Positions 50,136-60,926 of a stretch of DNA of 64,000 nucleotides are shown in pieces. The stretch lies in NCBI RefSeq assembly GCF_008704495.1, contig NZ_CP023699.1, forward strand, positions 5,332,001 through 5,396,000, read 5' to 3'. A program made the position numbers and the translations under genes. This stretch comes from Streptomyces kanamyceticus (GTDB taxonomy: Bacteria > Actinomycetota > Actinomycetes > Streptomycetales > Streptomycetaceae). The notes beneath the pieces are model-generated. The model was not told where the DNA came from. It saw nothing but the letters and a program-made list of their open reading frames with translations, and did not search any database. The stretch's first letter is position 1. Every line of letters starts with the position of its first letter.

Positions 50136-50987
50136 TCACAAGTTCTGGGCGATGCCGCGGATGAGGTCTTGCGACTTTTCGGGTGGGAGCGCTTTGGCGT
50201 CCATGCGTTCAAGGAGTACGCGGTACTTGCAGAGCTGAGCCGCGGCGTCGATGAACACGGGGCCGTGCGATTGGTCGAGGTGGACGGTGTCGAGTTGAGG
50301 GACGGATCCACCGGAGTAGAAGAGCGACTGCCCCGATCCCGGGAAGGAACCGGCGGCGAACGGGAGCACCTGGATCGTGACGTGCTTCCGTTCGCTCATC
50401 TCCAGCAGATGCTGCAACTGTCCCTTGGTTACGACGGGTCCGCCGAACTGCATCCGCAGGGCGGCCTCGTGGATGATCGCCCGGTACGGGGTCGGAGGGT
50501 CTCGGAAGAGGACCGCTTGCCGTTTGATGCGGAACGACACTCGGTGTTCCACCTCTGGGGGTGGGAGCTCGGGGACGACCTGGAGGAACAGCTCGCGGGC
50601 GTGGTCGGTGGTCTGGAGCAGGCCAGGGATGTGCACGGTGATGGCGGTGCTCAGGCGCGTGGCGTGGTGCTCGACCTCGGCCAGGTCCAACAGCCCGGCG
50701 GGCAGGATCTCGCGGTACTCCTCCCACCAGCCGCGTGTGCGGTCCTCGGCCATGTTGACGAGGGCATCGATGAAGGCCTGGTCCGAGCAGTCGTAGCTGC
50801 GTGCCATCGCGCGGATGCGGGATGCGCTCACCCCGAAGCGTGCGGTCTCGACGTTGCTGAGCTGCCCCTGGCTGGTCCCGAGGACGCGCGCGGCCTCGGT
50901 CGCGGTCAGGCCCGCATGCTCGCGAAGCCGCCGAAGTTCGGTGGCGACCCGGATGCGGCGGACCGTGGGTGCTGACCTCCCGGCCAT
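50136..50987 (-). CDS. XRE-family regulator with DUF5753 domain (WhiJ-like)
   Basis: The 283-residue protein has an N-terminal XRE helix-turn-helix (LRRLREHAGLTATEAARVLG, then TSQGQLSNVETARFG) and a C-terminal DUF5753-type domain (ITVHIPGLLQTTDHARELFL, then VTIQVLPFAAGSFPG). This pair is typical of Streptomyces WhiJ-like regulators with DUF397 and ATPase partners. A strong ribosome site (AGGAGGAG) lies 5 bases before the ATG at 50987. It is divergent from the anti-sigma-like ATPase and upstream of two DUF397 genes. Confidence 0.9.
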   Translation of the reverse strand: MAGRSAPTVRRIRVATELRRLREHAGLTATEAARVLGTSQGQLSNVETARFGVSASRIRAMARSYDCSDQAFIDALVNMAEDRTRGWWEEYREILPAGLLDLAEVEHHATRLSTAITVHIPGLLQTTDHARELFLQVVPELPPPEVEHRVSFRIKRQAVLFRDPPTPYRAIIHEAALRMQFGGPVVTKGQLQHLLEMSERKHVTIQVLPFAAGSFPGSGQSLFYSGGSVPQLDTVHLDQSHGPVFIDAAAQLCKYRVLLERMDAKALPPEKSQDLIRGIAQNL

Positions 50988-51042
50988 GCAACTCCTCCTA
51001 GGGGCAGTTCGGTTCGTCACTCACACGAGGGATTGTGCACTG

Positions 51043-51074
51043 CATTCCATGGAATGGGTGCAAATTTTATTTGC
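51043..51074. promoter_or_regulatory. Probable operators between the XRE and ATPase genes
   Basis: CATTCCATGGAATG at 51043-51056 is a perfect 14-base palindrome. GCAAAT-TTT-ATTTGC at 51060-51074 is a second inverted repeat. Both lie in an AT-rich island between divergent genes, a natural control site for the WhiJ-like XRE regulator. Confidence 0.6.
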
Positions 51075-51181
51075 GCGAACCTAGCCTGTGTCTCAGGCCA
51101 CTCGCCCGGAAGTACCCCGCTCGACGGAGCGGCACCGTCACTGGGCATCACGTGCAACTCCCCGACATGAAAGGCGATTCC

Positions 51182-51643
51182 ATGACAACCGTATCCCCGC
51201 CCTGGACCTACACCCTCCAACTCCCCCACGATCCCCGAGCCCCAGGAATCGCCCGAGCCACCCTCCGCGCGGTCCTCGAAACGTACGGACTCGGCGAACT
51301 CACCCCCACCGCCGAACTGCTGGCAGGCGAACTGCTCAACAACGCGCACTGCCACACCGACGGCCCCTACGCCCTCCGCCTCCGCTCCTCCTCCCCGGAG
51401 GGGATCCGCGTGGCGGTGTGGGACTCCAATCCGCGGATCCCACCTGGGTTCGGGGAGGACGGGCGCGCCTTCGACCGGCAGCCGCCGGGGATGGAGGAGG
51501 GCGGACGGGGACTTCACATCGTGCGGGCGTGTGCGGACAGTTGGGGGTCCTACCCGATGGGGACGGGGCACACGGGGAAGCTGTTGTGGGCTGAGGTCAC
51601 GCCGAGTTCCCCGTGGCGGAGGGCCGGGGGTTCCGGGGGCTGA
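51182..51643 (+). CDS. Anti-sigma-factor-like ATP-binding protein
   Basis: The 153-residue protein has the HATPase signs of SpoIIAB/RsbW-type proteins: ELLNNAHCHT (N-box), VAVWDSNPRIP (G1) and GGRGLHIVRACAD (G2). The ATG at 51182 follows AAGG by 8 bases. It stands divergent to the XRE/DUF397 genes, the classic layout of Streptomyces WhiJ-like gene sets that affect differentiation. The substrate sigma or anti-sigma partner is unknown. Confidence 0.85.
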   Translation: MTTVSPPWTYTLQLPHDPRAPGIARATLRAVLETYGLGELTPTAELLAGELLNNAHCHTDGPYALRLRSSSPEGIRVAVWDSNPRIPPGFGEDGRAFDRQPPGMEEGGRGLHIVRACADSWGSYPMGTGHTGKLLWAEVTPSSPWRRAGGSGG

Positions 51644-51692: not shown

Positions 51693-52613
51693 TCAGAGAT
51701 CCCCCTGCCTGATCGCGCCGCGTCGACCCCGCTTGCTCATGTGCAAGTGGCTCTTCTCGATCCCGTACTTGGCCTTGACGGGAGCGGTCTTACTCACTTC
51801 GATCAGGAACCGGCCGCTCGGTCGACGGGTGACCACGGGGGCCACCGCTGGGTCCCTGTCGGTGACCGACGCGGCGTACCGCTCGACGTACCTGCGTTGG
51901 CGTGGCGTCATCTCGGCGAGCGGCATCAGCTCGGTGGGATGGGCGAGATGACGCAGCACCGTCCAGCCGTACCGCTCGGAGGGCGGCGCGAGTCGGCACC
52001 ACGAACCGTCGGTGAAGCGGATCTTTGCTTCGCCCCAGACCTCGCTGTATGTCATGCGTTCCACCCGCGCGATGTGCTGCCGGTCGATCTCCCAGAGGGC
52101 TTCGTCCTTGCCCGGGTTGTCGTCGGGGAAGCCGACGACGACAACCCGGCGGTCGGTGACGACGCAGTGTGTCCGGTAGTCGGCCGGGCGTCGGGCTGGG
52201 TCGAGCTGCCAAGGCAGGGTGCGGGCGAGGGAGCCGGGGGCGCCCCACATGACGGGGAAGTCGTCGACCTCGTTCTCGGGGTCGCGTGGGCGGCCCGGGT
52301 CTTTGCTGCTGCCTGACCCGGCGCCTCCCAGGCCATCCAGGAGCACCGCGAGGGCGATCATGACGACGGCGACCAGGGCGCCGAGCCCGAAGCGTCCGGC
52401 TCTGCGGGCGGCGCTCCGGCGTGGTGGTGGAGCGGGAGTGTAGATGGGGCCTTCGGGCCAACCGGCCTGTACGGTCAGCTCGTTCTGTATGTCCTTGCGC
52501 TCGGTGTCGCGGAACCAGCGCATGCCGGTGACGGCGGGAGCCGTGCCGCTCGCGAACTCGACCGCGTCGCGGGCGAGCAGGGTCTCGCCGAAGGTTGGCT
52601 GCCATGGCGCCAT
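51693..52613 (-). CDS. Paralogue 1 of a membrane protein family with PH-like domain
   Basis: The 306-residue protein has an N-terminal region with GMRWFRDTERKDIQNEL (near residue 30) and one membrane helix (LGALVAVVMIALAVLLDGLG near 78). A C-terminal beta-rich domain follows (DFPVMWGAPGSLARTLPWQL and YRTHCVVTDRRVVVVGFP, then KIRFTDGSWCRLAPP). The strand pattern and TDRR turn recall bacterial PH-like domains. It is clearly homologous to the proteins at 52678 and 54447. AAGGAG lies 10 bases before the ATG at 52613. The function is unknown. The C-terminus is basic (MSKRGRRGAIRQGDL). Confidence 0.75.
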   Translation of the reverse strand: MAPWQPTFGETLLARDAVEFASGTAPAVTGMRWFRDTERKDIQNELTVQAGWPEGPIYTPAPPPRRSAARRAGRFGLGALVAVVMIALAVLLDGLGGAGSGSSKDPGRPRDPENEVDDFPVMWGAPGSLARTLPWQLDPARRPADYRTHCVVTDRRVVVVGFPDDNPGKDEALWEIDRQHIARVERMTYSEVWGEAKIRFTDGSWCRLAPPSERYGWTVLRHLAHPTELMPLAEMTPRQRRYVERYAASVTDRDPAVAPVVTRRPSGRFLIEVSKTAPVKAKYGIEKSHLHMSKRGRRGAIRQGDL

Positions 52614-52677
52614 GCGGGGCCGGCTCCTTTTCGGTTCGGAAACAACGTAAGTGGCGACTCTCCGGGGAACTCCTGCC

Positions 52678-53568
52678 TCACAGATCGCCGGGGGCCGGTT
52701 CTGCGGGTTGTCCCGAGTCGTCCATCAGGATCGAGTGGGTCTCGAAGAGTCCCGACCCGGCTTTCACCGGGATACGCGATTCGACCAGCGTGACGCCACT
52801 GCGTAGACGGCTGTACGTCGGCGGGTGAGCCGTCTTCGGGAGGTCGGCCCTGAACCGTGCCACTCGGTCGAACTGTCCCTCGGACAACTCGCTCTCCGCG
52901 AGCATGCGGACGGCGCCGCCGAGTACCTGACCGAGCCTCTCGGCGTTGTCCGGATTGCCGACGGACAGTCGGACCCAGGAACCGTCGGTGAACGTGACGC
53001 GCACGTCCGCGTTGACCTCGCTGAACTTCATGCGGCGGACCTCGGCGACGGCATCGCGAGCGAACTCACCGAGGATGTCGGCCTTCGCCAGACTGCCCTT
53101 CCGGGTCGCGAGGAAGAGCAGACGGCGGTCCGTCAGGACCAGATCGGTCACACAGTCCTCGGGGCGTCGCCCGGGATCGAGCTGCCACGGGACGGTCCTG
53201 GCGAGGCTGCCGGGTGCGGCCCACATGACGGGAAAGTCGTGCACCTCGTTCTCGGGTTCGTCCGGCTTGCCCCGGCCCGGAACATCTCCCAGAGGAGTGC
53301 CCGAGGCTCCCCCGAGGTTCGCGATGAGGTTCGCGACCAGCGGGATGCCCACGAGCAGAGCGCGACCGGTACGACGGGCCGCTTTGTCCCCTGCGGAACG
53401 CAGCTGGTACGTGGGCCCTGGTGGCCATCCGGTCAACTCTCCCTGCACGTCTCCGCGTTCGAGGTCGCGGAACCAGCGTGCGCCTGAGACGGCAGGCGCC
53501 ATGCCGGTGGCGAACCTGGCCGACGTGCGCAGGAGCAGCTGCTCATCGGAGTTCGGGTACCAGTCCAT
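52678..53568 (-). CDS. Paralogue 2 of a membrane protein family with PH-like domain
   Basis: The 296-residue protein repeats the family blocks: GARWFRDLERGDVQGEL, one shorter hydrophobic segment (GRALLVGIPLVANLIANLGG) and DFPVMWAAPGSLARTVPWQL with VLTDRRLLFLATRK, then VTFTDGSWVRLSVG. It is more diverged than paralogues 1 and 3, with a hydrophobic segment that is a weaker membrane helix. The ATG at 53568 follows GGAGG by about 10 bases. It ends 65 bases before the start of paralogue 1, so the two may be co-transcribed. No known function. Confidence 0.75.
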   Translation of the reverse strand: MDWYPNSDEQLLLRTSARFATGMAPAVSGARWFRDLERGDVQGELTGWPPGPTYQLRSAGDKAARRTGRALLVGIPLVANLIANLGGASGTPLGDVPGRGKPDEPENEVHDFPVMWAAPGSLARTVPWQLDPGRRPEDCVTDLVLTDRRLLFLATRKGSLAKADILGEFARDAVAEVRRMKFSEVNADVRVTFTDGSWVRLSVGNPDNAERLGQVLGGAVRMLAESELSEGQFDRVARFRADLPKTAHPPTYSRLRSGVTLVESRIPVKAGSGLFETHSILMDDSGQPAEPAPGDL

Positions 53569-53622
53569 CAGCGCGTCGCCTCCCTCTGTGGGCCTCCGAC
53601 ACCGTGTCGTCCTTCATCCGAG

Positions 53623-54387
53623 TCAGCGGGAAATTTCTTCGTCTTCGTCTTCGTCTTCGCCTTCGCCTTCGTCCGTGGCCGGTTCGGTGAAGGAGACCGT
53701 CTGGAGGATCGCCGACATGATGTTGCAGAACTCGGTCCAGTAGTCCGTGGACGCGGTGTGGAGCGTGAAGATCGCGGTGAACGGGCCGGTGGGGAAGGGG
53801 ACGTGGACCTGGATCTGGCCGGTGAGGAGCTCGGTCGCCTCGCCGGTCGCCGTGATCTCCGGGTTCAGCTTGTACTCGGTCAGGGTGACGCAGGAGACCG
53901 AGGGGCCGCACGGGAGGTCGAGCCAGCGGGCGTCGTTGTGCGGGGTGGTGGAGAGGACGGCGAGGATTCCCTGGGCGACGGTTTCGGTGTCGCCTGATGC
54001 CTGGTCGGTCGGGATGGCCGCGACGGTGAACGCGCACTGGGCTACGCCGTCGGAAGCTTCGTATGCGGCTTGGGGCTCGGCGTCACTCTCCTCCGCCGAT
54101 TCCTCCGCCGTCGCGAAGAGCCCCATCGCCGAGTAGGAGACTCCGGTGTCCGCCATCAGTTCGGCCAGTCCCGCGTAGTACGGAGCGGCGGGCTCCCAGA
54201 TGTTTTCGTCCCCACGTGAGTAGAGGCCGCGGACGAATGCCTGGGAGCGTTCGGCACGCTCCTCGGGAGTTGCTGCGAGAGGCAAAGCGAAGAATCCGTC
54301 AGGAACGTTGAACCAGATAGGCGGGGGCTCAAGGGCTTCAGCGGGAATGGGCGGAAGCTCGTGTGTGGTGTCGAGCGATCCTGTCAT
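53623..54387 (-). CDS. Acidic-tailed hypothetical protein between paralogues 2 and 3
   Basis: The 254-residue protein has a Pro-rich start (PPIPAEALEPPPIWFNVPDG) and helical segments (ERAERSQAFVRGLYSRGDE). A beta-rich middle follows (CAFTVAAIPTDQASGD, then QIQVHVPFPTGPFTAIFTLH) and a very acidic tail (GEGEDEDEDEE). The ATG at 54387 has AGGACGG 10 bases upstream. A TTG-started extension is unlikely. I do not recognise the family. Its position between two paralogues of the membrane family and upstream-linked WXG100-like genes suggests a shared role with a secretion-type system. Confidence 0.65.
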   Translation of the reverse strand: MTGSLDTTHELPPIPAEALEPPPIWFNVPDGFFALPLAATPEERAERSQAFVRGLYSRGDENIWEPAAPYYAGLAELMADTGVSYSAMGLFATAEESAEESDAEPQAAYEASDGVAQCAFTVAAIPTDQASGDTETVAQGILAVLSTTPHNDARWLDLPCGPSVSCVTLTEYKLNPEITATGEATELLTGQIQVHVPFPTGPFTAIFTLHTASTDYWTEFCNIMSAILQTVSFTEPATDEGEGEDEDEDEEISR

Positions 54388-54446
54388 GAGGGTGTGGCCG
54401 TCCTGGTCGCGAGGCGGTGCTGGTTCTGGAAGAGTCAACGGCGGAT

Positions 54447-55361
54447 CTAGAAGTCGTCGGGGTGGTAGTCCTTGAGCTCCACCTCATTGCCGTCGGCGTC
54501 CATGAGGAGGTCGTTCTCGGAGAGCCCGAAGAACGAATCAACTTGGCTGGGCTCCAAGAGCTCGACGCGGTAGTGACCGCAAGGGCGGCGACTGACGAAG
54601 GGTGTCCCGGCATGTGGCCCGCCAGACGTCGCGACGAACTGCTCGACGGTGATCTGCTGCGCCGGGGCGAGATCCGACCATGGGATCAGCTCTAGAGGAT
54701 GAAGCAGGTACCGGGTGAATTTCTCGCATGTGATGGCACGCAGCCTGCACCATGAATCGTCGCTGAAGAGGATTTTGACGTCGTTGCCGTCCTTGAAGCG
54801 TTTTAGCTCGACCCGGCTGATCTGAGAGCGGGGGATCTCCCAGAGGACCTCGTCCTCGATGAGTGCGTCGTTCCGCTTGGAGTACGGAAATCCCACGATG
54901 ACCAGTCGACGGTCAGTGACGATCGCATGGGTCCGGTAGTGCTTTTCGGAGGAGCGCGAGGGGTCCAACTGCCACGGCAGGGTGCGGGCGATGGTGCCGG
55001 GTGCTGCCCATACGACGGGGAAGTCCTTGACCTCGTCGTCGGGGTTGTCCGGTGTGTCAGAGCCGGAGCGAGGGCCTGAACTTCCGCTGATATTGCCTCC
55101 GGCGGAGCTGAGGGCGGCCATGAAGATGCCTCCCAGGGCGATCGCGCCTCCCTTGCCAATGTTCCGTGCCAGAGACCCACCAGTGGAACGGGGCGTGAAC
55201 ACAGGCCCTTCAGGCCAACCGGACAGTTCGTTCTGGATGTCATTGCGCTCGGTGTCGCGGAACCAGCGCATGCCCCGAACGGGTGTGGCCGCGCCGGTGG
55301 CGAAGGTGACCAGCGTGCGACTGAGGAGGGTCTCGCCCATCTCGGGCTGCCAGATGTCCAT
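54447..55361 (-). CDS. Paralogue 3 of a membrane protein family with PH-like domain
   Basis: The 304-residue protein has GMRWFRDTERNDIQNEL (near residue 30), a membrane helix (GGAIALGGIFMAALSSAGG) and the block DFPVVWAAPGTIARTLPWQL, HAIVTDRRLVIVGFP and DVKILFSDDSWCRL. It ends with a charged tail (LKDYHPDDF). The start ATG 55361 (MDIWQPEMGETLL) is chosen to match paralogue 1. ATG 55373 also exists. It is the closest in sequence to paralogue 1. GC content here seems lower than in the neighbouring genes, which may indicate a different origin. Confidence 0.72.
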   Translation of the reverse strand: MDIWQPEMGETLLSRTLVTFATGAATPVRGMRWFRDTERNDIQNELSGWPEGPVFTPRSTGGSLARNIGKGGAIALGGIFMAALSSAGGNISGSSGPRSGSDTPDNPDDEVKDFPVVWAAPGTIARTLPWQLDPSRSSEKHYRTHAIVTDRRLVIVGFPYSKRNDALIEDEVLWEIPRSQISRVELKRFKDGNDVKILFSDDSWCRLRAITCEKFTRYLLHPLELIPWSDLAPAQQITVEQFVATSGGPHAGTPFVSRRPCGHYRVELLEPSQVDSFFGLSENDLLMDADGNEVELKDYHPDDF

Positions 55362-55439
55362 ATCCGAGTGCATCTTCCTGAGTGGCGGCTCTGCGATTGT
55401 TGCCGGTGCCGTGCGCTCGCTCTGCCCTGAGCGGAACGC

Positions 55440-56717
55440 TCAGGCGCCCGAGGCGGACTTCTCGAACTGGTCACCGGGGAAGAGCGCATCTCCTACATGC
55501 TGATGAATGCTTGTGATCTTGGGGAAGATCTTCAGCCCGGCATCCATGGCGATGCCAGCTCCCAAGGGGTTGATATTCACACCTGGAATGAGGTTGGCCC
55601 CCTTGGAGCCGAGCCACTGGCCCGCGTGGTAACCCTGGTTGGCGATGCCGCCCATGCGCGACGCAAGGCCACTGGTGGCGTGGGACACCTCGTACACATA
55701 GTCAGCCTTACCGCCGAGAACCACCTTGCCGGGCAGCAGCTTGACCCCGCCCTTGACGAGACCGGCCGTCTCTCCGGTGGCCAGCAGCAAACGCGAGTTC
55801 CCGATGCTGGTTGCCTGGAACCCCTTGCCGAGCTCGGCGGCCTTGCTGAGGCCTGCCGCCTTCGCCAGCTTCGTGGTCTTGCCGGCCACCTTGATCCCCT
55901 TGCTGAAGGCTCCGACTCCTGGGATGAGTCCCATCGCGTCCAGCCCCATTTGCACCCAACTCACATCCGCCCCACCCAACTTGGCGAGGCCATGCGCCCC
56001 CAGCGCGAGCCCGCTCGTGATGAGCGCGGCTGTGCCGAAGATCGCGGCCAGCGGAGGGAAAGGGAGCGTGACGATGGCCAGGAGGCCCAGGACCGCCGTC
56101 AGGTCGCTCAGTAGGTCGCCGATGAGTTTGATCAGGTCGGCGTGGTCCTTGAGCCACTTGCCCGTGGCGTCCCACGCGTCCTTGACGCCCTTGGTGAGCT
56201 TGTCCCAGAAGCCCGGCTCGTCCGGGGCGATGTCGCCCGCCTTGTCGAGCTCCTTGCTGATGGCGCCCGCCGCCTTGGCGTAGCGGTCCTCCAGGTCGTG
56301 TACCTGGCCGATGACCTCGTCGACGTCCCCCGACGCCTTCCCGCTCTCCTTGGTGTTGGGCTTCGCCTCGGAGCGGGCGTCCAGTTTTTCCCCGGCCTTC
56401 TTCTCCAAGCGGTCGGTCTCGTCCTGGAAGTCCTTGAGTTCCCTGGCCCAGCGGTGCAGCGCGCGCGACGCCTTGTCGAAGGATTCGTGGCTCTTGCGGA
56501 TGAGCGGGGTGACGTCCTCGCCGATGTACTCGGTGAACGCGAGCGCCGCCTTGCCCTTCCAGGCGCCGCACTCGATCCGTTCCAAGTCCCGTACGGCAGC
56601 GCCCAGTTCGCCCGCGAGTCCGCCCAGCTTCTTCGCCAGGTCGCGGGTGTCCTCGACGTTGCCGGGGGTGGGGTCCCAGCCTATGTTCGGGAGCGCGGGA
56701 CGCTTCGTGTCGCTCAC
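55440..56717 (-). CDS. T7SS-secreted-type protein with WXG-like N-terminus
   Basis: The 425-residue protein begins with a WXG100-like helical hairpin (GAWKGKAALAFTEYIGEDVT and LHRWARELKDFQDETDRLEK) and continues with helices. Hydrophobic segments follow (LTAVLGLLAIVTLPFPPLAA; GTAALITSGLALGAHGLAKL), then a Gly-rich region that ends IGNSRLLLATGETAGLVKGG. It resembles Streptomyces proteins annotated as putative T7SS-secreted proteins, with no recognisable toxin domain at the C-terminus. The GTG start at 56717 is 1 base from the WXG100-like stop, so the two are translationally linked. Two hydrophobic segments suggest that it could insert into a membrane. Confidence 0.7.
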   Translation of the reverse strand: MSDTKRPALPNIGWDPTPGNVEDTRDLAKKLGGLAGELGAAVRDLERIECGAWKGKAALAFTEYIGEDVTPLIRKSHESFDKASRALHRWARELKDFQDETDRLEKKAGEKLDARSEAKPNTKESGKASGDVDEVIGQVHDLEDRYAKAAGAISKELDKAGDIAPDEPGFWDKLTKGVKDAWDATGKWLKDHADLIKLIGDLLSDLTAVLGLLAIVTLPFPPLAAIFGTAALITSGLALGAHGLAKLGGADVSWVQMGLDAMGLIPGVGAFSKGIKVAGKTTKLAKAAGLSKAAELGKGFQATSIGNSRLLLATGETAGLVKGGVKLLPGKVVLGGKADYVYEVSHATSGLASRMGGIANQGYHAGQWLGSKGANLIPGVNINPLGAGIAMDAGLKIFPKITSIHQHVGDALFPGDQFEKSASGA

Positions 56718-56718
56718 G

Positions 56719-57030
56719 CTACTTGCTCTTCTTCTTCGCCGACTTGGCCGACTTGAGGGATTCGGCGAGCGCCTGGTCCAGCTTGCTGAACTCCGTGTCG
56801 ATCTTGTTGATCATCTTGACGGCACCCTGCGTGTGCTTGCCGAGCTGCTTGACGCCGTAGCCCCACTCGTCGGCGAACTCGTGTACGTCCTCGATGAGTT
56901 TCTCGGCCCCGACCACCGAGCCGTCGGTGTTCTTGAGTGTTCTGCGCGCGGCGTCCATGCGGTCGCTGACCGAGGAGAAGGTCTTCTTGAGGTCCTCGAA
57001 GATCGTCCCGTCGAGGCGGAGGTCGCTCAT
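56719..57030 (-). CDS. WXG100-like small helical protein
   Basis: The 103-residue protein is a helical hairpin of ESX/WXG100 type: FEDLKKTFSSVSDRMDAARR, a turn with DEWGYGVKQLGKH (W-G turn), then KLDQALAESLKSAKSAKKKS. The C-terminus is Lys-rich and lacks an obvious YxxxD/E secretion motif. The gene is directly upstream of the T7SS-secreted-type gene and follows a secreted-protein gene on the same strand. It may be a partner or chaperone of its neighbour. Confidence 0.72.
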   Translation of the reverse strand: MSDLRLDGTIFEDLKKTFSSVSDRMDAARRTLKNTDGSVVGAEKLIEDVHEFADEWGYGVKQLGKHTQGAVKMINKIDTEFSKLDQALAESLKSAKSAKKKSK

Positions 57031-57075
57031 GTCGGTGTCCCGGATTCCCTGTTGTGGCCGTGGGCGTGGCCGTGG

Positions 57076-58128
57076 TCAGCGGTTGACGGACTGGATCTCG
57101 CGTACGACGACGTCCTGCGTCGCACCGAACTCACCGGGGGGCAGTGTGCCGCCCGGCTCACTGGTGCTTGTCCAGGTGACCCGCCAGGTGATGGTGGCCC
57201 CGAGTTCGTACGAGGCGTCGCCGGACGAGCGCAGATAGCGCACGCCGCACGGCGGGTCCGTGTCCGCCGGAGTTCCCTTGGCGCGGGGCATGCCGATCCG
57301 GCCGTCGTCCCCGATCGGGCACTCGCCGGAGGCCGGGTACGTCTCGGCGTCCGACGTTCCCGGGTCGAGCTTCAGGGACACGGGCTCGGCGGTAGTCGTC
57401 GCGGAGAGGCCCGTTCCCGGCAGGGTCGCGGTGACCGAGATCTTCTTGAACTTGGCCTTGTCCAGCCACACCCAGGTCGGCAGGTTGACCTTCGTCTCGC
57501 CCTCGGGGGCCATCGTGATGTCGGTGTCGGGGACCGGGATCTGGCCGTAGGCGTACTCAGCAAGGATGCGAGGGGAGACTGCGAGTGGCTCCTTGGTCGG
57601 CGCGCCCTTGGTTACCCAGAACGGCAGCCGGTCGCAGGCCTTGGCCGCGGGCTCGTCCTTGCGCTTCTCGTCGACCGCCGCCGCCCAGAACTGTCCCTCA
57701 CCCTGCTTGTCGAGGTTGTAGTTCTTGTAGGGGTTGCCGTCCTTGAAGTACATGTCGAAGACTCCGCCCACGAGGTCGCCGATCCCGAGGACCTTGAACG
57801 TCCGGATGGCCTTGACCGTGGCCTCGATCTGCTTGGGGGAGTAGGCGGGCTCGTACCAGCAGGCCGGTCGTTCCCAGTTGCTGTTGGCCGGGGTGAGCGT
57901 CCCCGTCTTCGTGGACTTCGGGCTGCCTTCGACGGTCGTCTGGATCTTCGTATGTACGCCGAGGTTCTTGTCGTGGCGGGTGGCGTTCGATTGCTGCCCG
58001 CCCCCGAAGTTTCCCCCACCTTCGGTGTCGCCGCCTCCGGCATAGGCGGCACCAGGGATCAGAGCCACAGCGATGGCGAGAAAAGGAACGGTCCATCGGG
58101 TGGACGACTTCGGCGTCGTTACATGCAC
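57076..58128 (-). CDS. Secreted protein of unknown function
   Basis: The 350-residue protein has a signal peptide (VPFLAIAVALIPGAAYA, cleavage near residue 30) followed by a Gly-rich segment (GGGDTEGGGNFGGGQQ). The mature part is a mixed alpha/beta domain with several Cys (RPACWYEP, KACDRLP, SGECPIG, DPPCGVR), perhaps disulphide-bonded. The family is not recognised. It lies 45 bases upstream of the WXG100-like gene and overlaps the lipoprotein gene by 10 bases, so the four genes form an operon. Confidence 0.7.
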   Translation of the reverse strand: MHVTTPKSSTRWTVPFLAIAVALIPGAAYAGGGDTEGGGNFGGGQQSNATRHDKNLGVHTKIQTTVEGSPKSTKTGTLTPANSNWERPACWYEPAYSPKQIEATVKAIRTFKVLGIGDLVGGVFDMYFKDGNPYKNYNLDKQGEGQFWAAAVDEKRKDEPAAKACDRLPFWVTKGAPTKEPLAVSPRILAEYAYGQIPVPDTDITMAPEGETKVNLPTWVWLDKAKFKKISVTATLPGTGLSATTTAEPVSLKLDPGTSDAETYPASGECPIGDDGRIGMPRAKGTPADTDPPCGVRYLRSSGDASYELGATITWRVTWTSTSEPGGTLPPGEFGATQDVVVREIQSVNR

Positions 58129-58784
58129 TTCTTGGCTCCGGTCGTCGACGTGACGGAATCCGCCTGCCAGACACCCTTGTCGTTCTTCTTCACACGGGTG
58201 TTGACGTAGGCGTAGTCACTGGCCGAGCCGGGGATCGACCGGTCGACCTTGCCGGTCTTGAGGTCCTTGGGATACGTCTTGGTGCCGTCTTTGCAGTAGG
58301 TCACCGCTGCGACACCTTCCTTGAGGAAGGTGACCTGACGGTCGTAGTACCGAATGGTCCCGATGAAGCTCTTGTTCTTCTCCTTGAACCCCTGGACGTA
58401 CTCCCCCGCTGACAGCAGAGCCTCGCCCGACCCATAGAACTTCAGCGCCGGATGATCCTTGGCATCGACGGTCACGGCTTCGATCAGCGAGTTGAGCCAG
58501 CGCTCGTTGTCCGCCAGCACCGCATCCTTCTTCGCATCCCCGGTCTTGCCCCCCTCGAAGACGTTCTTCACGTCCTTCGGAAGCTTGACCTCCGGGCGGT
58601 CGACACCGTCCTCCGACGCCTTCGGGGACGGCGCGTCGCTCTTCTTGTCGCCCTGGCCCGCGCCCGCGATCTTGTCGGTGTCCGTGTCCTTGGAATCCCC
58701 GCCACCCCCTCCGCACGCCGAGAGCGAAAGGACCGCGGCAGCAGTCATGGCGGCCGCTGCGAGCAGGGTGGGGCGGCGGTTCAC
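58119..58784 (-). CDS. Lipoprotein of unknown function
   Basis: The 221-residue protein has a signal with lipobox LSLSAC (Cys near residue 24) and a Gly/Asp/Lys-rich linker. The remaining domain has helices and strands (ADNERWLNSLIEAVTVDAKD; GTIRYYDRQVTFLKEGVAAV; GVWQADSVTSTTGAKKC). It should be attached to the outer membrane surface. It is the first gene of the operon with the secreted protein and the WXG100-like genes and overlaps its neighbour by 10 bases. No function is known to me. Confidence 0.78.
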   Translation of the reverse strand: MNRRPTLLAAAAMTAAAVLSLSACGGGGGDSKDTDTDKIAGAGQGDKKSDAPSPKASEDGVDRPEVKLPKDVKNVFEGGKTGDAKKDAVLADNERWLNSLIEAVTVDAKDHPALKFYGSGEALLSAGEYVQGFKEKNKSFIGTIRYYDRQVTFLKEGVAAVTYCKDGTKTYPKDLKTGKVDRSIPGSASDYAYVNTRVKKNDKGVWQADSVTSTTGAKKCM

Positions 58785-59163: not shown

Positions 59164-60249
59164 TCACGTCGCGCTGCCCGTCGCCGCCGTCCGGGACTTC
59201 TTCTCGTCGACGATCCTGCGGTCCAGGATCGCCGTGCGTTCCACCACCGTGCCCGGCTCGACGCCGTCCACCCGCTTCGCCTGTACGCCCCGGCTGCCCA
59301 GGTACGCGTACGTCTTCTTGTCGAAGATCCACTCCGTGCGTTCGCCGGTCTGTTCGTCCGTGCGGGCCAGGGCGATTCCCTCGCGGCCCGCCGCGTCCTT
59401 GGCGTGGTCGACGACGACCACGCCGGGGATCCTCGCGCCCGCCCGGTAGAGCGCCGCGCTGATCTTCGGCGGGGCCAGCTGTTCGGAGATCATGTCGCTG
59501 ATCGTGTCGAAGGCCTGCTGGTCGCGGGAGGACTGGTTGTTCGTGTCGGCGTAGATGCGGTCGAGGAGGGCCTTGGTGGCCGTGGGGAGCTTGCTGACCT
59601 TGTTGTACGACCAGCCCTCGACGTCGCCGTCGAGGGTGATGCCCTCCTCCGGCTGCTCGCCGGGCTCGAAGAGCCAGCCCCTGAGGCCGTTGGGGGAGAG
59701 CCAGGCCTCGCGCGGGTGCAGCTTCTGGACGTAGGTCTTGGATTCGTCCGTGTCCGCGTTCTCCTCGGTCACGACGTACGAGACCTCGCTCTTCACGTAG
59801 ACGTACTGATCCTGGCGGGGGGCCGTGAACTTCTCCGTCTCCGCGGCCCGCGACGCCTTCGCCGCGATGGTGGAGACCGTCTTCGTGGTGCCCGGCTCCA
59901 ACTGGACGACGGGGGCGATCTCGCGCGGGACGCCCTCGGGGGCGCCGCCCGTGCCACCGGTCAGGTTCACCGCGATCACGGCCGCGAGGGCCGCCGCGGT
60001 GACCGGGACGCCGATGAAGAGCGCGCGGCGTACGGGGCGGCGGGGCGGGCCCGCGGGCGGGGCGGGGAAGCCGGGGGACGTGGGGCCCGTCTGCTGCTGG
60101 ATCCGGGTCATCAGGTGCCTCTCGAGCAGGAGTTGGCGGTCGCTGGAGAGGGCCGGGTCGCCGGGCGCCGGAAGGAGCCGGGCCAACTCCGTGTGGTCCA
60201 GCGGTTCGTGCCGTGCCGAACGGCTTCGGCTCCTCGGAGTGCGCTTCAT
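59164..60249 (-). CDS. CU044_5270-family membrane protein, likely anti-sigma partner
   Basis: The 361-residue protein has a cytoplasmic N-terminus rich in Arg/Pro, one membrane helix (ALFIGVPVTAAALAAVIAVN near residue 75) and a long extracytoplasmic beta-rich domain (KYVYVKSEVSYVVTEEN-type strands). This matches actinobacterial CU044_5270-type proteins, which are encoded next to ECF sigma factors. Its ATG overlaps the sigma gene's stop by 4 bases (ATGA), so it is co-translated. It probably restrains that sigma factor, although no zinc-binding anti-sigma motif is seen in the N-terminus. Confidence 0.78.
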   Translation of the reverse strand: MKRTPRSRSRSARHEPLDHTELARLLPAPGDPALSSDRQLLLERHLMTRIQQQTGPTSPGFPAPPAGPPRRPVRRALFIGVPVTAAALAAVIAVNLTGGTGGAPEGVPREIAPVVQLEPGTTKTVSTIAAKASRAAETEKFTAPRQDQYVYVKSEVSYVVTEENADTDESKTYVQKLHPREAWLSPNGLRGWLFEPGEQPEEGITLDGDVEGWSYNKVSKLPTATKALLDRIYADTNNQSSRDQQAFDTISDMISEQLAPPKISAALYRAGARIPGVVVVDHAKDAAGREGIALARTDEQTGERTEWIFDKKTYAYLGSRGVQAKRVDGVEPGTVVERTAILDRRIVDEKKSRTAATGSAT

Positions 60250-60926
60250 TCGTTTCCCTCCCTCTCCGACCTGACCGCGTGGGTGCGGTCAACCTGTACT
60301 TGTCCGCCCATGTGGGGTGGTTCCGTGATTTCTCCGGCCGGGCGGCCGGACTTTCTTGAGGCGCTTGAGGCCGCCGCCAGCTCCTCCTGCGCCAGCTTCC
60401 GCAGCCGCGTCCGCGCGCGGGACAGGCGCGAGCGCACCGTGCCGACCGGTACGCCCAGCGCCTCGGCCGTCTCCGCGTAGCCGAGGCCCGACCAGACGCA
60501 GAGGGTGAAGACCTCGCGCTCGCCGCGCCGGAGGCGCTTCAGGGCCGCCTGCGCCGCGGCCAGTTGCTCGGCGTCCGCCAGTCGGCCGACCAGCTCGTCG
60601 GCGAAGTCGGGGACGGCGCTCGCCGCGGGGACGCGGTCCACCGCGGAGCGGTAGCGGCGGGCGGCGCGGGAGGTGTTGCGGAGCACGTTCACGGCGATGC
60701 CCATCAGCCAGGGGCGTGGGCTCTCGCCCTCGTCGCGCAGTTTTCCGCGCAGCCGCCACGCCTCCAGGAAGGTCAGGGAGACCACGTCCTCGGCGGTGGG
60801 CCAGTCGCCGCTCACGCGCAGCGCGTGCCGGTAGACCAGCTGGGAGTGGTCGCGGAACAGCTCGCGGAACGCTTCCGGGTCCCCGTCCCTGATCCGGGCG
60901 TGCAGGGAGAATGAGTACGTCGTCAC
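60246..60926 (-). CDS. ECF-type sigma factor
   Basis: The 226-residue protein has sigma region 2 (FRELFRDHSQLVYRHALRVS and TAEDVVSLTFLEAWRLRGK, near residues 20-65). Region 4 follows (LRRGEREVFTLCVWSGLGYA and TAEALGVPVGTVRSRLSRAR, near 130-175), and a C-terminal extension (GEITEPPHMGGQVQVDRTHA). The GTG at 60926 is the first codon that fits the family start (TTYSFSLHARIRDGDPEAF). It has no ribosome site, so the mRNA may be leaderless. The gene is coupled to the downstream CU044_5270-type gene, its likely anti-sigma partner. It is divergent from the NlpC/P60 hydrolase gene. Confidence 0.88.
   Translation of the reverse strand: MTTYSFSLHARIRDGDPEAFRELFRDHSQLVYRHALRVSGDWPTAEDVVSLTFLEAWRLRGKLRDEGESPRPWLMGIAVNVLRNTSRAARRYRSAVDRVPAASAVPDFADELVGRLADAEQLAAAQAALKRLRRGEREVFTLCVWSGLGYAETAEALGVPVGTVRSRLSRARTRLRKLAQEELAAASSASRKSGRPAGEITEPPHMGGQVQVDRTHAVRSEREGNE

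Follow-up and report, generated by a model that had tools for sequence, protein, structure and literature searches.

Which secretion machine, if any, serves a set of type VII secretion system (T7SS)-type genes with no motor beside it, and what is the set for? The question is raised by a locus of Streptomyces kanamyceticus. The window analyzed here is the whole stretch of 64,000 nucleotides from 5.332 to 5.396 Mb of the single-contig, 10.13-Mb chromosome, and positions not given in Mb are counted from its first nucleotide. Between 51693 and 58784, minus-strand genes encode in this order a lipoprotein, a secreted protein, a small protein of 103 amino acids (aa), a T7SS-type protein of 425 aa, the PH-like paralogue A, a protein termed 'acidic', and the PH-like paralogues B and C. 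A first-pass annotation of the DNA had described eight closely spaced genes on this strand, and both the list of open reading frames (ORFs) and a GC3-based gene caller returned these eight. All genes of the set are open frames without stops.

Our analysis speaks, with moderate confidence, for a T7SS effector-immunity cassette that lies dispersed, away from its machine, and not for a separate pathway. In the best reading the genes encode an effector (the 425-aa protein), a co-secretion partner (the 103-aa protein), a cytoplasmic chaperone or antitoxin (the 'acidic' protein) and tandem PH-domain immunity proteins (the paralogues). Gene linkage, domain and fold assignments, co-occurrence and the covariation of the partners with the effector C-terminus were obtained by computation; pairing, secretion, toxicity, immunity and chaperone action are what we infer.

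Recurrence of the Cassette

A first protein search returned 309 proteins. Among the 120 listed, nearly all that carried a name were called 'hypothetical protein', many had no name and most were from Streptomyces; no characterised relative of the cassette genes was found. Loci were then collected from one genome per species. The scan matched 201 stretches, 91 of which encode a relative; the best 80 were kept, and 77 of these were distinct. They were analyzed with flanks of up to 10 kb, many of them cut by contig ends, and since they were picked by their PH match, other effector types are under-sampled. By tblastn, which counts any relative in a locus including distant copies, the effector was found in 70 of the 77 loci, the Mog1/PsbP-fold protein (as we call the 'acidic' protein, see below) in 66, the small partner in 56, and the secreted protein and the lipoprotein in 54 each. 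The paralogues thus accompany the WXG100-type pair in genomes other than this one, and the proposal of a set built round a WXG100-type partner was borne out.

Two gene orders were seen, partner-effector-PH-Mog1/PsbP, which is the type of the window, and partner-effector-Mog1/PsbP-PH. Related loci were also found under the labels Kitasatospora, Streptantibioticus, and Actinacidiphila. The PH-like family was present in 25 of 199 Streptomyces genomes at E ≤ 0.001 and in 23 at E ≤ 1e-20. Phylum-wide, 3 of 396 genomes gave a match; two of these were Streptomyces and the third match was weak and partial.

The EssC-Like ATPase and Its Effector Island

The genome gave 15 FtsK/SpoIIIE matches, none of them in the window, which agrees with the earlier statement that no EccC-type ATPase is encoded there. 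A candidate motor was found among the neighbours of the related cassettes. De novo clustering of neighbour genes, called with a home-made GC3-based caller that misses genes, gave an ATPase cluster of ~1520 aa in 34 of the 77 loci, a WXG100-type cluster in 29 and a kinase cluster in 13 (for the latter two, one representative of each was scanned). Two FtsK/SpoIIIE stretches were recognized in the ATPase representative, together with a weak match of FHA type; the FHA-type match of the EssC-like protein scored 21.2 bits against a Pfam cut-off of 33.2. The closest solved relatives by sequence were 4nh0 (an FtsK/SpoIIIE protein), YukB, and EccC5. In the 30 loci where both genes were called, the EssC-like gene lies 0.4-8.6 kb from a PH-like gene.

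The EssC-like gene of S. kanamyceticus is located at 4.348-4.353 Mb, ~1.03 Mb from the window cassette. The ~50 kb before it were found by best BLASTP hit to hold five effector relatives, four small partners, five lipoproteins, three secreted proteins, seven genes of three Mog1/PsbP-type clusters (1, 5, and 1), an Rhs protein with T7SS_signal, and a WXG100 gene. The EssC-like gene beside a kinase gene and a menaquinone gene presumably corresponds to SCO4508 of S. coelicolor.

An orthologue of the EssC-like ATPase (E ≤ 1e-160) was found in 43 of the 199 Streptomyces genomes. This threshold was set after a gap had been seen between 1.2e-166 and 1.9e-117; at E ≤ 1e-20 the query matched 113 genomes, a number that takes in other EssC/EccC relatives. 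Of the 23 genomes with a PH-like gene at E ≤ 1e-20, 22 encode the orthologue (Fisher p 2e-16, with kinship ignored and two weak PH hits dropped, G101 at 4.2e-6 and G118 at 7.3e-4), and the sole exception is an 82% complete assembly. It is therefore likely that the motor for the cassette is the EssC-like ATPase amid related effectors. The suggestion of an orphan set served by an ESX machine elsewhere stood in so far as the set is an orphan with its machine elsewhere; the machine to which it is linked is an EssC-like ATPase amid its own effectors and not a classical ESX locus.

The reverse relation was looser. PH-like genes (E ≤ 1e-20) were lacking in 21 of the 43 genomes with an EssC-like gene, which speaks against a core role in the machine. 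By the same count the paralogues go with one effector type and do not form a common membrane platform.

EccC- and EccD-like genes are also present in this genome, at 8.629-8.636 Mb, and with no motor beside the window cassette it might be argued that this locus serves it, or that it is served by none and is a relic. We regard this as very improbable. Elsewhere the linkage is to the EssC-like gene and presence follows that gene, related effectors adjoin the EssC-like gene in the same genome, and no stop interrupts the frames of the window genes. The sole YukD/EccD match of the genome, at 8.635 Mb, has another EccC-like gene as its neighbour and is 4.3 Mb away from the EssC-like one. The EccC/EccD-like genes (locus L138, 8.620-8.640 Mb) adjoin genes of a pPIWI-RE island (domains Y, Z, and REase), a defence-type set. 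An absence of EccB from the genome was dropped as an argument: no match was obtained, and 14 of 14 control genomes gave none either.

The effector island is flanked by genes of T2SSE and T2SSF type such as occur in Tad pili (L133:13510-16333; 4.3095-4.3123 Mb), and the corresponding clusters 12 and 15 were found in 13 and 12 of the 77 loci. Tad genes adjoin other T7SS subtypes as well, according to the accessible text of a survey (PMC11217815).

A second dispersed cassette lies at 6.429-6.432 Mb (L139:5038-8441). It consists of an effector relative, a small membrane-type protein (cluster 33), and genes of clusters 8 and 18, with 80-90% identity to relatives elsewhere. Since an effector relative with its own partners is thus found at 6.429 Mb also, dispersal is not unique to the window. 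The cassette looks movable.

The PH-Like Paralogues

Paralogue A (54447..55361, minus strand, 304 aa) was placed from its ORF, its relatives and a family model. Its start is the one common to most relatives, and the listed ORF extends to 55373. Paralogues B (52678..53568, minus strand, 296 aa) and C (51693..52613, minus strand, 306 aa) are candidate immunity proteins identified by ORF, genome search and paralogue alignment, with the family model in addition for C. They are 42 and 46% identical to A, respectively, and a genome search with A returned only A, B, and C. The motifs reported in the first-pass annotation, WFRDxERxDxQxEL, DFPVxWxAPGxxARTxPWQL, TDRR, and TDGSW/SDDSW, were all present in the alignment of the three.

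The predicted PH-like fold, proposed earlier from the sequence, has moderate support: the AlphaFold model of the family resembles a PH-type barrel, none of the Pfam PH families matched the paralogues, and a search of the PH set against solved structures by sequence gave nothing convincing. A single hydrophobic segment had been described as common to the paralogues. It was found in two of the three in the window (mean hydropathy of at least 1.6 over 19 residues) and, in a family-wide hydropathy scan, in 48 of 87 members (47 with one segment, one with two); the feature is thus weak. In the family model the segment seems to break into the PH domain.

Across the 199 Streptomyces genomes the family shows decayed copies and variation in copy number, and genome G023 carries four full-size copies with further fragments within 6 kb. 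Six of 40 PH-like genes had no effector within 6 kb, one of the six having an effector at 6.1 kb. The corresponding number for Mog1/PsbP genes was 1 of 25, and the difference was not significant (p 0.24). These counts leave out 9 of 49 PH hits, which were shorter fragments, and take the 25 strongest Mog1/PsbP hits; as effectors they accept only hits of the cassette's own effector type. In a locus of S. atriruber (L063, G081:C177) the lipoprotein and secreted-protein genes accompany an array of PH-like genes and their remnants, an orphan array; the 20.9 kb examined gave no small partner, effector or Mog1/PsbP relative.

In cassettes with a different type of effector, other families (clusters 27, 28, 31, 33, and 34) fill the slot that follows it. 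Hydrophobic segments, one or more per gene, were found in all 28 genes of these five families. The cluster 31 protein was considered as a remote PH-like paralogue and rejected (probability 0.8%).

The Effector Candidate and Its Small Partner

The 425-aa protein (55440..56717, minus strand) was assigned as a candidate T7SS_signal/WXG-type effector from Pfam, hydropathy and type comparison. It is made up of a targeting region, a hydrophobic segment at residues 195-241 and a variable C-terminus. Its own Pfam matches to T7SS_signal and WXG100 are below threshold, that to T7SS_signal (PF21725) scoring 22.8 bits with a cut-off of 27. Among 29 diverse effector relatives, T7SS_signal was matched by 27 at E ≤ 0.01 and LXG by one. 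At least one hydrophobic segment was found in 111 of 113 relatives. The effector relatives gave no PAAR match in Pfam scans, and a search against solved structures gave helical matches that were weak, EsxA (E 0.03) being one of them. A glycine-zipper toxin like TelE/EsxX was rejected, as C-terminal zipper motifs were rarer than in shuffled sequences (1.64 vs. 2.36; 107 relatives).

The two gene orders differ in the effector C-terminus. Over the first 100 residues the identity to the window protein was 0.71 in 47 cassettes of the window order and 0.71 in six of the other order, whereas over residues 250-425 it was 0.51-0.54 in the former and 0.30-0.35 in the latter (14 cassettes of ambiguous order were left out). 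It could be held that the 425-aa protein is a substrate with a structural or a signalling role, in envelope biogenesis or development for example, and that the PH-like and Mog1/PsbP-fold proteins help to assemble it. Such modular C-termini on a common N-terminus make this an unlikely account, as do the patchy distribution (25 of 199 genomes), the variation in copy number and decay, and the Rhs proteins with T7SS_signal in the same islands.

The gene directly upstream (56719..57030, minus strand) encodes the putative Lap/WXG100-like partner of 103 aa, assigned by motif count and profile matches; its export-type motif, FSKLD, is at residue 81. A [YFW]xxx[DE] motif was found within the last 40 residues of all 79 family members (shuffled sequences: mean 14.5, maximum 23), and WxG in four of the 79. 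For a Lap protein, FxxxD on the C-terminal arm is described as a likely export signal in the accessible text of PMC12744356. The WXG100 profile was matched by 10 of 27 small-partner relatives at E ≤ 0.05 and in Pfam not by the window protein, and a comparison of the partner with solved structures by sequence gave nothing convincing.

The Mog1/PsbP-Fold Protein

Between paralogues A and B lies the gene of the 'acidic' protein (53623..54387, minus strand), a candidate chaperone or cytoplasmic antitoxin by predicted fold, remote relatives and neighbourhood. Its start codon was chosen by inference, and the listed ORF extends to 54438. The first-pass annotation had named it for its acidic tail. The tail is present in this copy, between the paralogues as described, and is not a trait of the family, which is better defined by a predicted Mog1/PsbP-like fold. 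This fold is common to the Eag chaperones of type VI secretion systems (T6SS) and some immunity proteins. None of 56 members matched DUF1795 in Pfam-A at E ≤ 0.05, and clusters 2 and 8 gave nothing convincing against solved structures by sequence.

The protein or its remote relatives accompany 81 of 103 effectors, and some of the other 22, such as that of locus L060, have such a gene by tblastn. No hydrophobic segment was found in 113 of the 120 genes of the Mog1/PsbP-type clusters 2, 8, and 9. A role as an EspG/EsaE-type chaperone, a class treated in the accessible text of PMC10653861, might also be considered; among the matches listed (50 VIA, 50 Foldseek) no EspG fold was found. Cluster 18 was rejected as a member of the family (hhalign probability 3.3%).

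The Rhs protein with T7SS_signal encoded in this genome is 1527 aa long (L134:60-4643). A cluster 8 gene, of Mog1/PsbP type, lies directly upstream of the Rhs gene here and in six of nine loci with such an Rhs gene, which may be compared with the eag genes of T6SS.

Covariation with the Effector C-Terminus

We used 45 cassettes having an effector, a PH-like protein and a Mog1/PsbP-fold protein to compare distances between the proteins. PH-like distances correlated with those of the effector C-terminus (r 0.82), hydrophobic region (0.76), and N-terminus (0.26); for the Mog1/PsbP-fold protein the values were 0.80, 0.70, and 0.30. The partial correlation with the C-terminus was 0.53 for the PH-like and 0.59 for the Mog1/PsbP-fold protein (0 of 300 permutations each), and that of the latter with the hydrophobic region was 0.06 (55 of 300 permutations). 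A subset of 27 cassettes gave the same pattern. Both the paralogues and the Mog1/PsbP-fold protein therefore track the effector C-terminus and not the N-terminus.

Covariation of this kind would equally be expected if the PH-like proteins served at the membrane as export adaptors or docking factors, each specific for its effector, linking the effector complex to the EssC-like machine, and were not immunity proteins. The strongly conserved motifs shared by the paralogues speak for such adaptors, as does a bacterial PH-like fold noted earlier in the T7SS component EsaC. Immunity is the better fit to the tandem copies (up to four full-size plus fragments) and the decayed ones, to PH copies with no effector nearby (6 of 40), and to the unrelated membrane-type proteins in the slot of other effector types; moreover, other effectors of the same islands manage without PH proteins. 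We consider adaptors rather unlikely.

Block exchange of adjacent DNA could also yield the covariation. No toxin domain was found in the effector, and its toxicity is putative.

A Model for the Cassette

If the set is an effector-immunity cassette, the 425-aa effector would be paired through its helical N-terminus with the 103-aa Lap-like protein, which would supply the export motif. The Mog1/PsbP-fold protein would bind the effector in the cytoplasm and shield its hydrophobic or C-terminal part until export, on the model of the T6SS Eag chaperones, which act on transmembrane segments, or of ExiAB, which acts on EsxX. The complex would leave via the EssC-like ATPase with the nearby WXG100 gene, ~1.03 Mb away, and the effector may target the envelope of competitors. 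The PH-domain paralogues would guard the producer at the inner face of the membrane, where tandem copies might broaden protection to variant effectors, and the lipoprotein and the secreted protein would work outside the cell.

A wider proposal can be made tentatively. The island would represent an undescribed Streptomyces T7SS subtype, with an EssC-like ATPase and a WXG100 gene, no EccD beside them, and T7SS_signal/Rhs effectors that each have a Mog1/PsbP-fold chaperone, as a Gram-positive counterpart of Eag, and an effector-specific membrane immunity protein, which in the window's type would be the tandem PH-domain proteins. If this is true, it would suggest that two unrelated secretion systems handle effectors with hydrophobic segments alike, the T7SS partner having the fold of the T6SS effector chaperone, and Streptomyces would have a protein weapon besides antibiotics.

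Flanking Genes

The secreted protein (57076..58128, minus strand, 350 aa) and the lipoprotein (58119..58784, minus strand, 221 aa), both placed by ORF and neighbourhood, are a pair recurring beside such cassettes. Their genes overlap by 10 bases, as the first-pass annotation had indicated. The three paralogues, the 'acidic' protein, the secreted protein and the lipoprotein of the window had no match in Pfam, and the lipoprotein family gave nothing convincing there. The genes for an ECF sigma factor and a CU044_5270-family protein further upstream (59164-60860) were rejected as cassette members because each was alone in its own cluster among the loci.

At 50136-51643 a divergent pair encodes a helix-turn-helix regulator and a small protein that, judged by eye, resembles an ATP-binding regulator. 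These are clusters 16 and 19, which recur in 11 and 10 loci, the window included. Between 26001 and 32000 the G+C content falls to 0.55-0.63 and the strand skew changes.

Comparison with Known Systems

Most of what is known about T7SS effectors, their chaperones and their immunity proteins comes from Bacillota and mycobacteria. Our searches of the open-access literature turned up no account of the EssC-like island, of T7SS effectors with Mog1/PsbP-fold partners or of immunity conferred by PH domains.

The subtypes T7SSa to T7SSj, of which T7SSd is actinobacterial, resemble the island in their EccC/EssC-type ATPase and WXG100 gene, and in many cases a Ser/Thr kinase and substrates of the Rhs or LXG kind accompany these, as given in the accessible text of PMC11217815; the main text of that paper does not mention Streptomyces. 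The island differs in that the sole YukD/EccD match is far from the EssC-like gene and the FHA-type match is under the Pfam cut-off. It may be a T7SS variant.

Putative T7SS-linked exported alarmone synthetases of Streptomyces and Amycolatopsis have an alarmone synthetase domain of their own, and no EssC/EccC, Mog1/PsbP or PH-like partner is mentioned in the accessible part of PMC12691689. They are alike in being predicted T7SS effectors of the same bacterial order, some of them beside putative immunity and T7SS structural genes (PMC12691689, same part).

The Eag (DUF1795) chaperones of T6SS, such as EagT6 and SciW, share the Mog1/PsbP-like fold predicted here. Unlike them, the cassette protein has no DUF1795 match, its effectors have T7SS_signal and no PAAR match, and the host is Gram-positive.

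The LXG/Lap systems of T7SSb (TelA/LapA, EsaD/EsxBCD, and EsxX/LapX3-4) likewise combine a helical targeting region at the N-terminus and a variable C-terminus of the effector with adjacent partner genes and a small partner, a hairpin that would have its counterpart in the 103-aa protein, with a YxxxD/E- or FxxxD-type motif, as far as described in the accessible texts of PMC10653861 and PMC12744356. The cassette differs in being actinobacterial, in having T7SS_signal (27 of 29) and not LXG (1 of 29), in its other partner families and gene order, and in the lack of an identified toxin domain.

EsxX-ExiAB-ExiCD and TspA-TsaI are membrane-depolarising T7SSb toxins with membrane immunity families (accessible texts of PMC12744356 and PMC9484751). 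Six transmembrane helices are predicted for ExiCD and five for TsaI, both polytopic, whereas the PH-domain proteins of the cassette have at most a weak hydrophobic insert, and the cassette effectors show no excess of glycine zippers. The arrangement is similar: an effector is combined with a travelling cytoplasmic partner and with membrane-associated proteins in tandem or orphan copies (PMC12744356, PMC9484751), and TspA, too, is encoded together with tandem TsaI at a distance from its T7SS cluster (PMC9484751).

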